Of a stretch of 62,254 nucleotides of DNA, positions 15,170-56,019 are shown one piece after another; position 1 is the first letter of the stretch; every line of letters begins with the position of its first letter. The stretch is taken from assembly GCA_947175215.1 (NCBI GenBank), contig CAMWLR010000005.1, positions 1 through 62,254 of the forward strand. Direction: 5' to 3'. The notes under the pieces were generated by a model, which did not search any database, was not told where the DNA came from, and was given only the letters and a program-made list of their open reading frames with translations. This stretch comes from an uncultured Porphyromonadaceae bacterium (GTDB taxonomy: Bacteria; Bacteroidota; Bacteroidia; Bacteroidales; Muribaculaceae). The position numbers and the translations under genes were made by a program.

Positions 15170-15226
15170 AAAATCATAGCCCTCTAAGTCAGCTGACGAT
15201 CATCAGTCTTAGAGGGCTATGATTTT
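15170..15226. terminator. Intrinsic terminator hairpin
   Basis: AAAATCATAGCCCTCTAAG...CTTAGAGGGCTATGATTTT. Confidence 0.85.
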
Positions 15227-15234
15227 AGGGGATT

Positions 15235-15315
15235 ATTAGCCTAATCGGTAATATTAGACATATTAGTCATGTCGGTCAAATTAGTCTCATCAGGCTAATT
15301 AGTCAAATTGGGCTG
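15235..15315. repeat. Nine contiguous degenerate 9-nt repeats (consensus ATYRGNCWN) in the subtilase 3'UTR
   Basis: ATTAGCCTA ATCGGTAAT ATTAGACAT ATTAGTCAT GTCGGTCAA ATTAGTCTC ATCAGGCTA ATTAGTCAA ATTGGGCTG. Confidence 0.85.
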
Positions 15316-15323
15316 AGCGGGTC

Positions 15324-17555
15324 TTATTTGATGACGAGCTTGCGTGAGAGGTTCTGGCCTGCGGCATTGACTGACAGTACATAGATGCCGGGTTGCAGTG
15401 AAGATGCGTCAAGGTTGACGGTGTCGCCCTCTGAGCCGGCGGTGAGTGCCAGGCTGCCCTGCAGGTTATAGAGGGCGCAAGTGAGGTTATCGACACCTAC
15501 ACAGCTTACCTCATACTGCTTGCCGCCGAGGGGAGCTACGATCAGGTTCTTGTCGGCATTGTCGGCCAGGGTGCTCTTGACTGAGGCGCTGAGCTCGATG
15601 GCTTTTTTCAGACCGGCCAGTACGTTGATCTTACCTGCGCCCCAACGGTCTGCCTGTGCGGCGGTGACAAAGCTGTCTTTGGTTGAGGTTGCGGCGATGA
15701 TGTCCTGAGCCTCTTTGCCTCGCATACCGGGGCAGGCCTCAAGCCACAGGGCCAATGCACCTGATACAAAGGGGGTCGCCATTGATGTACCCTGCATATA
15801 ATACCAGGGATAGGTGTTGTTGCCTGAGGTGGCTTTGGCTGACCATGTTGACTCGCTAAGCTTGCTGCTGTCTGTCCAGTAACGGCTCACTGATGAGATG
15901 ATCTGTGCACCGGGGGCGCAGACGATGGGGAGCTGACGACCGTCACCCGATTTGCCGTATGACGAGAAGTTGGCGATCGAGCCTACACCTTCGCCGGCGT
16001 TGATGGTCACCTTACCGCCGCTCAACTGCGGTACGTTTGTACGGCTTACCCATGCGCCGACTGATACGGTATTATAACCGCACGCCATACCGTTGATCGA
16101 ACCTACGTCAGTGCCGGTGATTGAGCCTGCCCAACCTGTCTGGTTGGCAAAGCGTACCTCTGACTCTGAGTATCCGTCGAATGCGTCGCAATAACCGTTG
16201 ATGCGCATGCCGTTATCACCGTTGATGATGATACCGAACACGAGGTTACCGTTCTTTGACTGCGAGATATTATACATATAGATGTTGAATCGGTCGGTCG
16301 AGCCATCGACACCCCAGCGGATGCTGAACGATGTGCCGCTCTCAAAGTTGTCGGCGATCAGCGCGTCGGTGTTGGTGTTGATGGTCATGCTGCCCGATTT
16401 GCCGGTGATGTCACGGGTGAACACCACTTTCTTGGTGGTCTTGTTAAAGAGCACGGCCTGAGCGGTGAAGGAGGTTGACGAGTTGTTCCAGAACTCGGCG
16501 GTGTACATCACATAAGCCTTCTGGTTGGTCGAGGTGGGCACGATAGATGTGCGCACAGAGGTGGCGCGGGTAAATTCGCGCTCAAACGACATCTGAGAGC
16601 CCCCCTCGTTACCGGCGGCTACAACGATGATGGCATCCTGGGCACGTGAGTCGAGATAGCGGTTGACAGTCTCACGGGGGTCGTGACTGCCTCGGTTATG
16701 ACCCAACGACAGGTTGACGATGACGGGGCGACCCTCGCTCTTGGCCTTGTCGACGATGGCTCCGATACCGGCGTTGATCGATGCGTCGTCAAAAGAGCCG
16801 CAACCTACCAGGATGTCTGCCTCGGGGGCCACGCCATAGTAGGGGATGGCACCCTCGGCCAGCTTGGTTGACGCGCCCTCTGAGTAGGCGTAATTACCGT
16901 TGATGCCGGCGCGGCCGGTGATGGTGCCCAGCACGTGGGTGCCGTGGCTCTGGGTACGGTCGTCGGTGGTGAAGAGGGCGACAGTCTCGGGTGTCTCATA
17001 GGGTGAGGGTGTGCCGTTGTTAACGAGATAAACGGCCTTTACGCGCGACTTGCCCGATGCGTCTGTAAAGTTGATATGGTTGGGGTCGAGGCCGGTGTCA
17101 TAAAGGCTGACATACACGCCGTTACCTTTGTAGGCCTTGTCGAGGCCCTCGGCAGTGCCATCATGCACACCTGCCATGAATGAGAGCTGACGGGCCTGGT
17201 CCATAAAGGGAGCTGCCTGATAACCAAAGTCGATGTTCTTGACAAAATCCTCCTCGGCCAGAGCCTCAACCTCGGTGATGGGGAGAGACACGATGGCCAT
17301 GTCTGACGTGGTGTCGAGAACGGTCACGCCATAATCCTCGAGATCTGCAATCGATGCACCGGGGGCGAGGGTGACATAGACGGTTACGTTTTTGGCGAGA
17401 GCGGCGGCCCGCTGGGGTGAAGCAAGCGCCAGTTCCTGCTGCAGACGGTTAAACTGGTCGATCTGCACCTGTCCGGCGTTGTTGATCTTGCTTTGGGCCG
17501 CTGAGGAGAGACAGCATCCGGCTGCCACTACCCCGCAGAGTAAAAGTTTCTTCAT
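15324..17555 (-). CDS. S8 subtilisin-family peptidase with T9SS-type C-terminal sorting domain
   Basis: Catalytic blocks YDTGLDPNH, SHGTHVLGT, GTSMATPFVSGAL; C-terminus LQPGIYVLSVNAAGQNLSRKLVIK. Confidence 0.9.
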   Translation of the reverse strand: MKKLLLCGVVAAGCCLSSAAQSKINNAGQVQIDQFNRLQQELALASPQRAAALAKNVTVYVTLAPGASIADLEDYGVTVLDTTSDMAIVSLPITEVEALAEEDFVKNIDFGYQAAPFMDQARQLSFMAGVHDGTAEGLDKAYKGNGVYVSLYDTGLDPNHINFTDASGKSRVKAVYLVNNGTPSPYETPETVALFTTDDRTQSHGTHVLGTITGRAGINGNYAYSEGASTKLAEGAIPYYGVAPEADILVGCGSFDDASINAGIGAIVDKAKSEGRPVIVNLSLGHNRGSHDPRETVNRYLDSRAQDAIIVVAAGNEGGSQMSFEREFTRATSVRTSIVPTSTNQKAYVMYTAEFWNNSSTSFTAQAVLFNKTTKKVVFTRDITGKSGSMTINTNTDALIADNFESGTSFSIRWGVDGSTDRFNIYMYNISQSKNGNLVFGIIINGDNGMRINGYCDAFDGYSESEVRFANQTGWAGSITGTDVGSINGMACGYNTVSVGAWVSRTNVPQLSGGKVTINAGEGVGSIANFSSYGKSGDGRQLPIVCAPGAQIISSVSRYWTDSSKLSESTWSAKATSGNNTYPWYYMQGTSMATPFVSGALALWLEACPGMRGKEAQDIIAATSTKDSFVTAAQADRWGAGKINVLAGLKKAIELSASVKSTLADNADKNLIVAPLGGKQYEVSCVGVDNLTCALYNLQGSLALTAGSEGDTVNLDASSLQPGIYVLSVNAAGQNLSRKLVIK

Positions 17556-53814: not shown

Positions 53815-56019
53815 ATGAACCGATCAATCCAATTGTTACCCTACATAAAACATCTGTCGCGATGCGTCAGCCTGATAACACCGATGTTGTTGCTGACAAC
53901 AATGCTTATGACATCAATTCAGGCAGACGGTCGTAAGCTCTCACCCATGCTGACTCAGATGAGGATGCCGCAAGAGCCCGACCTGTCACCAGATCACGTA
54001 CACTCTGAGCGAACAGGTAAATCTTATCTGCCACTGATTATCAAGTTACACGATGCCGATGTCACGCTACCTGAGTCAGTAAGCATAATACATCGGCGCG
54101 GAGTATTCCTGCTCGCTTACGTACCGGTTGATGAAATACAGGCCGTAAGTCAGCTTGGCGTAATCTCGCGCATCGAGGGGGGACAGGTGTGCACACCCGT
54201 GCTCAATGAGGCCCGCAGGTTCACCTCTTACCCCGAGGTCGAGCAGGCGGTTGGTCTCCCCGAGGTGTATACAGGCAAAGGGGTAGTGACCGGATTTACG
54301 GATATAGGTTTTGACCCCAATCATGCTGCATTCCGCGACCCCACGACAGGCGAGAGACGCGTCAAACTCCTTACCGACTATGGATTATCACCCGGCAGTT
54401 GTACGCGCCTCGACACACCGGCCGAAATTGCAGACTGGTCGACCGATGACGCTGACCAATGGCATGGTACACACGTAGCAGGCATTATGGCCGGTGGATA
54501 TAAAGATAACCCCTATTGGGGTATCGCGACCGAGTCAGACATCGTGGGTACAACCAGCGTGCTGTATGATGCCCTGCTGTTGGCCGGGATGGAGGATGTC
54601 GTGGGATATGCCCGCGAGGTCGATAAGCCGGCCGTCATAAATATGTCGGTCTGTGCGAGTCTCGGCCCGCATGACGGCACATCACTCTTTTGTCAATACC
54701 TTGACGAACTTGCCAAGGAGGCCGTGATATGTATATCGACCGGTAATTACGGCGAGAAAGTGGGGTATTGGGGAGGCGCGCTCCCTCAGAGCGGTCAGTC
54801 AGCCGGGGGATTTATCGACTATTATACCTGGCGTCCTGATAAGGCATCTGGATACCTCGATATCTGGAGCGCCGATGCCACACCGCTCAATTTTGACATG
54901 CTCGTGCTCGACCTCGATACTGATGAGGTCGTTGCACGGGTGCCGTTTCCCGAGATTACCTCAGGCCACACAGATGTGAATTTTGCTATCGCCTCGTCAC
55001 AGCAACTCCTCGTTGCAGCCGGTGCTGACGAGAGTAATGGTGTGGTCTCAGCCGATCTTGCCCGCTATCTCGACGGTATTGTGATTATCTCGACCGAAAT
55101 CAACCCCGAGAATAACCGCTTTAACGCACTTTACTCTCTAAGTGTCAAGAATCTACCTGAGGCGAGCGGTGAACTCGCATGGCGTTATATCATCGGCATC
55201 GATATTAAAGGTGATCCCGGCCAACGCTTCTCTGCCTATTGCTCAGATCAGATAAGGTTGCGACATGTGCCCGACAACGACCGCGCAGTGCCGATGACGT
55301 CAGACGGCGTCATGAATGACTTTGTCACTGCCCATAACGTCTTGGGTGTCGGGGCAATGTGCTCGCGCAACCACTGGCCTCTGATAGACGGTCAGGAGGG
55401 AACATCTAAATACACCGTGGGTGATGTCGCCCCGTTCTCATCATACTGGAGCAGTGCGCCAGTCAGGCCTCTACCTGACATAACAGCTCCCGGGGCGACA
55501 CTTATCTCATCAATGTCAACCCCTTATATTGAGGCGCATCCTGACCGTGTCGCAGCAATGACACTGATGCAGACCGCATACGACAGAGATAATTACTGGT
55601 GTAGCGCAAGCGGTACATCAATGTCCTCACCATACGTGGCCGGTGTCTGCGCCCTTGCATGGCAGGCTGACCCTGATGCCACTCCCGCCGAGATCGTCGA
55701 TGCCGTAATATCGACCGCCATGACTCCTCAGGGAGATCCTGCCAACCCGCGGTGGGGAGTGGGGATGCTCGACTCATACGCTGTCATCCGCAAAATCATC
55801 GATAATTCTGGTGTAGGTAATATTAAGGCCGATCAGACAGGCGACTTGGGGTTGCCCTCCTTGCCCGTTCCGCTCACTGCTGAGGCTCTGGCTGCCTACG
55901 CCATTGACAACCGTTTACAGATAGCTACCCCGCAAGGGAGAACGGTCAGCCCAGGTTCGCTCAGTTCGGGTATCTACATCCTGTATCGTGGAGATGCTGC
56001 CATAAAAGTCGCCCTGTGA
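53815..56019 (+). CDS. S8 subtilisin-family peptidase with T9SS-like C-terminus
   Basis: GFTDIGFDPNH, QWHGTHVAGIMAGG, SASGTSMSSPYVAGVCAL; C-terminus GRTVSPGSLSSGIYILYRGDAAIKVAL. Confidence 0.9.
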   Translation: MNRSIQLLPYIKHLSRCVSLITPMLLLTTMLMTSIQADGRKLSPMLTQMRMPQEPDLSPDHVHSERTGKSYLPLIIKLHDADVTLPESVSIIHRRGVFLLAYVPVDEIQAVSQLGVISRIEGGQVCTPVLNEARRFTSYPEVEQAVGLPEVYTGKGVVTGFTDIGFDPNHAAFRDPTTGERRVKLLTDYGLSPGSCTRLDTPAEIADWSTDDADQWHGTHVAGIMAGGYKDNPYWGIATESDIVGTTSVLYDALLLAGMEDVVGYAREVDKPAVINMSVCASLGPHDGTSLFCQYLDELAKEAVICISTGNYGEKVGYWGGALPQSGQSAGGFIDYYTWRPDKASGYLDIWSADATPLNFDMLVLDLDTDEVVARVPFPEITSGHTDVNFAIASSQQLLVAAGADESNGVVSADLARYLDGIVIISTEINPENNRFNALYSLSVKNLPEASGELAWRYIIGIDIKGDPGQRFSAYCSDQIRLRHVPDNDRAVPMTSDGVMNDFVTAHNVLGVGAMCSRNHWPLIDGQEGTSKYTVGDVAPFSSYWSSAPVRPLPDITAPGATLISSMSTPYIEAHPDRVAAMTLMQTAYDRDNYWCSASGTSMSSPYVAGVCALAWQADPDATPAEIVDAVISTAMTPQGDPANPRWGVGMLDSYAVIRKIIDNSGVGNIKADQTGDLGLPSLPVPLTAEALAAYAIDNRLQIATPQGRTVSPGSLSSGIYILYRGDAAIKVAL

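Follow-up and report, generated by a model that had tools for sequence, protein, structure and literature searches.

The window analysed in this study, a stretch of 62,254 nucleotides, carries on its minus strand a gene for an S8 subtilase of 743 aa with a T9SS type A C-terminal sorting domain (positions 15324–17555; PF00082, E 3e-30; TIGR04183, E 5e-8, above cut-off). On the coding strand, its stop codon (15324) is located 8 nt upstream of a solo array (15235–15315, minus strand) made up of nine degenerate 9-nt units, which in coding-strand order are CAGCCCAAT TTGACTAAT TAGCCTGAT GAGACTAAT TTGACCGAC ATGACTAAT ATGTCTAAT ATTACCGAT TAGGCTAAT. Sequence and fold revealed a 20-bp hairpin with a T-rich tail on the 3' side of the array (15170–15226, minus strand). 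The initial annotation had placed the array between the stop codon and the terminator of the subtilase gene; this position was confirmed, and the assignment of the hairpin as an intrinsic terminator is plausible, a strict terminator scan not having called it. The DUF4421 gene identified by a profile match (PF14391; 13951–15105, minus strand) is a downstream neighbour only and lies outside the array system. A second subtilase-like ORF of the window (54082–55908, plus strand), 29% identical to the first, has no array of this 9-nt family.

Re-reading of the sequence showed that the division of positions 15235–15315 into nine nonamers was exact, as were the column patterns described for the forward strand: T2 and G5 are invariant, A1 and C7 are present in 8/9 units, columns 3 and 4 vary by transitions only and column 8 is A or T. 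The units are contiguous and correspond to NWGNCYRAT on the coding strand; the transcript unit given earlier, NWGNYRAT, was one base short. The array scored 69.6 bits with a profile built from other genomes only, while the maximum among 2000 dinucleotide shuffles of the spacer was 21 bits. When no profile was used, the period-9 column information was 1.20 bits, whereas none of 20000 shuffles exceeded 0.69; the top-scoring 81-nt segments across the 62 kb were all within 7 nt of the array register. Chance or base composition as the source of the array is ruled out by these shuffle tests and, as had been proposed, it is a genuine patterned repeat. Tandem Repeats Finder reported only 2.2 copies with a low score because the units are degenerate. 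A coding repeat was also discarded, since the array lies outside the ORF and few arrays of the family are found in ORFs.

The unit is nearly mirror-symmetric (roughly ATWRGNCYWAT, centred on N), with a symmetry of 0.80 at one centre and at most 0.41 at others. The transition-only columns form part of this symmetric unit, which alone does not imply RNA binding. The window array folds better than its shuffles (z −3.7), as do 42 arrays taken together (mean z −3.6). With respect to column-shuffled arrays, the mean z was −0.28 (s.e. 0.19), and the Y and R positions (R2–Y6 pairs) showed no co-variation in excess of these controls. Therefore, the fold follows from the palindromic unit, and RNA co-variation as the origin of the transition-only columns is ruled out. 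The array may form RNA structure, without sign of selection on its base pairs.

Searches with the 9-nt unit revealed that the array is not unique. In the window's genome (G000, a MAG of 94 contigs and 92% complete), the two-unit pattern gave 8 matches vs. 0 in the reversed control, and 854 kb of sampled stretches contained 13 arrays scoring 24 bits or more, vs. 0 when reversed. The initial annotation had mentioned similar short repeats in other Bacteroidales, and arrays of the NWGNCYRAT family do recur: of 397 Muribaculaceae genomes, 47 had a strict three-unit match (364 matches vs. 14 in the control), at 0 to 101 matches per genome and with rich genomes beside empty ones. Spacers were enriched for period 9 (and 18), and also for period 7, relative to shuffles. 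The consensus of 393 units from other genomes was W R G(0.90) N C(0.96) Y A(0.89) A(0.99) T(0.97); in these units, drawn from several genera, the G, C and AT columns are 90–99% conserved while the Y and R columns are variable. The longest array seen, of 32 units, is a GA-rich variant (L147, G148). Another nine-unit array of the family in the window's genome (L045 11874–11954, contig C3) falls inside an ORF and codes for a portion of a linker rich in S, D, Q and P. It must be noted that arrays are frequently located near contig ends (e.g., G000:C65, 11900–11953 of 12082; G371:C10; G403:C38), and therefore MAGs probably undercount them and lose their flanking genes.

Arrays lie mostly in spacers, a few being within ORFs, and convergent spacers are favoured over divergent ones. 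Where a gene boundary was found at 40 nt or less, the nearest one was a stop codon in 47 cases and a start codon in 14, vs. 120:127 for random spacer positions. Among tandem genes, arrays were in sense orientation in 32 cases and antisense in 18. Thus, of the enrichment behind genes with a consistent strand that had been suggested, the stop-codon bias was found and the strand consistency was not, and a strict sense-strand 3'UTR element as a general rule was rejected. The sister species G013, G004 and G008 have the orthologous subtilase locus, with proteins 77, 74, and 60% identical, and no array between stop codon and terminator; the stop codon is followed by a short unrelated spacer and then by the hairpin. 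Therefore, the window array is lineage-specific. A solo array of G013 is absent from the window's genome at the orthologous spacer. Two species of a different genus (86–94% protein identity) retain some arrays in a shared spacer, with differing unit numbers and unit variants. Together with the arrayless sisters, this indicates that arrays are gained or lost lineage by lineage, can be retained, and undergo internal turnover.

Arrays of several genera adjoin one protein family, a four-helix bundle carrying a suffix domain (TIGR04258, TIGR02436; weak PF05635, 23S_rRNA_IVP). Genes for such small 23S-rRNA-IVP/Avd-like four-helix proteins are placed between arrays. We gathered loci by the four-helix gene alone, not by the repeat, using simple ORF calls. 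The flanks of the suffix type (TIGR04258) had period 9 in 42 of 53 loci, the other 11 having no period-9 flank, and period 7 in none of the 53. Among the 37 loci of the plain short type (TIGR02436), 15 had flanks of period 7, 5 of period 8 and none of period 9. As a control, period-9 flanks were found at 7 of 547 random genes from the window's genome. The association between subtype and flank period gave a Fisher p of 9e-16, a value that is overstated given that some loci are related by descent. No report linking the four-helix subtype to a repeat period was found in the open-access literature. The heptamer arrays flanking the short type were inverted in 13 of 14 pairs. For the 9-nt type, a rule of inverted flanks was rejected (5 inverted, 13 direct) because many of its units are themselves near-palindromic, so that orientation is less informative there: palindromic units were found in 39% of suffix-type arrays (p ≤ 0.05) vs. 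0% of short-type arrays. Among solved structures, the short type is closest to PDB 2GSC (Xanthomonas campestris XCC0516), its best match, and to 2RLD. To our knowledge, no nuclease or polymerase activity has been described for the four-helix protein. In one locus (L172 10349–10492, G371), a 16-unit array is read in frame with the four-helix ORF and extends it at the N-terminus, probably because the ORF was called too long. A second 9-nt array of the window's genome (L076 3710–3800, contig C12) has a different unit, AAGGTCTTT, which is common to many genomes and also flanks suffix-type genes in G011 and G330.

In the few genomes compared, units flanking these genes are also dispersed in the respective genome. 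RGGACYNGT, found at the four-helix gene of G009, had 98 matches in that genome and 0 in 11 others; its dispersed copies are mainly inverted pairs at stop codons that fold into long hairpins. GGGARNTWT, from the G013 gene, had 21 matches in G013, 4 in the sister G004 and 1 elsewhere. The heptamer CTARRRA had 245, 268, and 211 matches in three species of one genus (G261, G276, and G370, respectively) and 0–3 elsewhere. Two further units were more widely shared among genomes, and therefore the match between gene and dispersed unit is not one-to-one. The unit of the window array itself is carried by 11 of the 42 suffix-type loci with period-9 flanks. It is also present in G011 and G403, whose four-helix genes carry other units, and in G036 and G007, which have no suffix-type gene. 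A gene flanked by the genome's own dispersed repeat was found in relatives and not in the window's genome, where no TIGR02436 or TIGR04258 match was detected in the 92% complete assembly; loss of the gene and an assembly gap are both possible. The conformity of units to the core was 0.85 in the window's genome vs. 0.90–0.93 elsewhere. Decay of arrays where the gene is absent was considered and set aside, the value being suggestive only: conformity was not lower in G036 and G411, which have no matching gene.

Sites free of the element were also found. Two neighbouring genes that are 6 nt apart in the window's genome are separated in G261 by 491 nt of array, gene and array, beginning directly behind a stop codon (L196 vs. 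L068). Three more pairs of element neighbours are directly adjacent elsewhere, the orthology of one neighbour being only 42–50% in some cases. The four-helix gene also occurs within operons (nrdB/nrdA, cas6/cas4, cas10/cmr3) on annotated plasmids of Nostoc, Anabaena, Pseudanabaena, Picosynechococcus and other organisms; of 12 plasmid cases, 8 have period-7 flanks and 1 has period-8 flanks, when about 0 were expected. In the plasmids of Anabaena sp. 90 (L328) and Pseudanabaena galeata (L330), the heptamer-flanked gene separates cas6 from cas4 in a CRISPR operon; elsewhere a four-helix gene is placed between cas10 and cmr3 (L331) or between both ribonucleotide reductase subunits (L326).

The protein family of the array-flanked genes (PF05635/TIGR02436) includes the S23/IVP protein of 23S rRNA intervening sequences and the Avd protein of diversity-generating retroelements. 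In rRNA intervening sequences the gene is likewise located between pairing ends. Those sequences sit in the 23S rRNA gene, whereas the arrays and four-helix genes described here are between protein-coding genes, and the elements, unlike both 23S rRNA intervening sequences and Avd, have tandem arrays at their ends. A diversity-generating retroelement has a reverse transcriptase beside the Avd-like gene, and none was annotated within 1.5 kb on either side of the four-helix genes at the annotated plasmid loci. Phase-variable simple sequence repeats consist of pure units that switch a frame or promoter, whereas the window array is degenerate and lies behind a stop codon. A parallel in organization, the REPIN-RAYT system, also has one gene flanked by short repeats that are dispersed genome-wide, mostly extragenic, species-specific, and present as gene-less copies. 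However, the RAYT gene encodes a tyrosine (HUH, Y1) transposase, to which the array-flanked proteins gave no match, only 23S_rRNA_IVP/four-helix models being found; and REPIN repeats are palindromes of 20–40 nt rather than tandem units of 7–9 nt (general background and PMC3116915).

With regard to the repeats, heptamer arrays (GGGAATC, GGGGAYT) have been reported in Xanthomonas and Nostoc, often 0–50 nt from a stop codon (PMC4692102), and TAACTGA repeats in some Bacteroidetes (PMC4679880). These repeats and the cyanobacterial STRR resemble the window family in being short degenerate tandem arrays dispersed in spacers and sporadic by species. The window unit is 9 nt long and mirror-symmetric, whereas the STRR/heptamer period of 7 nt is not that of this array. 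The two papers propose G-quadruplex or translational roles and, in the parts consulted, make no mention of a four-helix gene (PMC4692102; PMC4679880). The Xanthomonas strain with GGGAATC arrays (PMC4692102) encodes the four-helix protein XCC0516, and the coincidence of a short-type protein and heptamers in the same organism is as the period rule would predict. Degenerate spacer repeats, the four-helix family, and the REPIN-RAYT logic with another protein were already known.

In attention to the above, the link to four-helix genes best explains the window array, which we regard as probably a solo, gene-less copy of a repeat family tied to small insertion-like elements. A full element would be a four-helix-bundle (23S-rRNA-IVP/Avd-like) gene between arrays of one unit, the plain protein type going with 7- or 8-nt units in usually inverted arrays and the TIGR04258-suffix type with 9-nt, often palindromic units. 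The protein would recognize repeats of its unit length, in DNA or RNA, and may promote their growth and spread, the copying itself being performed by polymerase slippage or recombination. Copies would settle right behind stop codons, where they may be least harmful. From these patterns we infer both the mobility of the elements and the role of the protein.

An ordinary minisatellite, arisen by polymerase slippage on a chance 9-nt seed and tolerated in spacers with no protein partner, so that four-helix genes merely land in or survive beside repeats, is the strongest competitor, though we consider it rather unlikely. It would account for the fast change of unit number at orthologous spacers (L167/L180, L179/L194), for the avoidance of coding sequence and divergent promoters, and for the presence of arrays in some species and their absence in sisters. 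Nevertheless, it leaves unexplained why the period tracks the protein subtype, why the unit at the gene flanks is the dispersed one, and why some sites lack both gene and array. Nor does it explain the conserved G, C and AT columns beside variable Y and R, or the inverted heptamer flanks, since insertion into a pre-existing array would give direct flanks. A further reading, in which the array offers DNA sites to a DNA-binding protein of symmetric form that might, for instance, organize the chromosome, we regard as very improbable: the near mirror symmetry of the unit, frequent also among suffix-type units, would fit it, but the arrays are sporadic among close relatives, congeneric species have different units, which is not the case for known chromosome-organizing sites, and a 9-bp spacing is out of helical phase.

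The proposal that the array is a maintained repeat with a regulatory role held as regards its pattern, its recurrence in Bacteroidales and its placement at gene ends, and found no support as regards a role specific to the subtilase gene. A 3'UTR element selected for its effect on the subtilase, as repeated sites for an RNA-binding protein or as protection of the mRNA 3' end, would agree with the location between stop codon and hairpin, the bias of the family to stop codons and a fold better than that of shuffles. However, the orthologous site is arrayless in three sister species, arrays occur in both orientations and some inside ORFs, the genes beside them are functionally unrelated, and folding is no better than that of column-shuffled arrays, with no compensatory co-variation, all of which makes this reading improbable. 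For the subtilase, the array is probably a near-neutral 3' filler, and it could slow 3' exonucleases, given its better-than-chance fold.

Descriptions of short, degenerate tandem repeats in bacterial spacers go back decades, and we know of no maker or reader for them. A gene subtype that predicts the period, and flanks with the genome's own unit, provide a concrete candidate, and both the period rule and the gene-repeat link hint at a mobile-element-like system. More tentatively, and with somewhat less than even confidence, we suggest that IVP/Avd-like four-helix proteins define a class of minimal elements bordered by repeats that is widespread in Bacteroidota, cyanobacteria and other groups, set the repeat length (7/8 nt for the plain type, 9 nt for the suffix type) and drive the birth and spread of STRRs, solo arrays being their footprints. 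If true, this would account for a class of 3' spacer insertions that are restricted to particular lineages and give a function to a large uncharacterised family whose only annotation is 'four helix bundle' or 'S23'.
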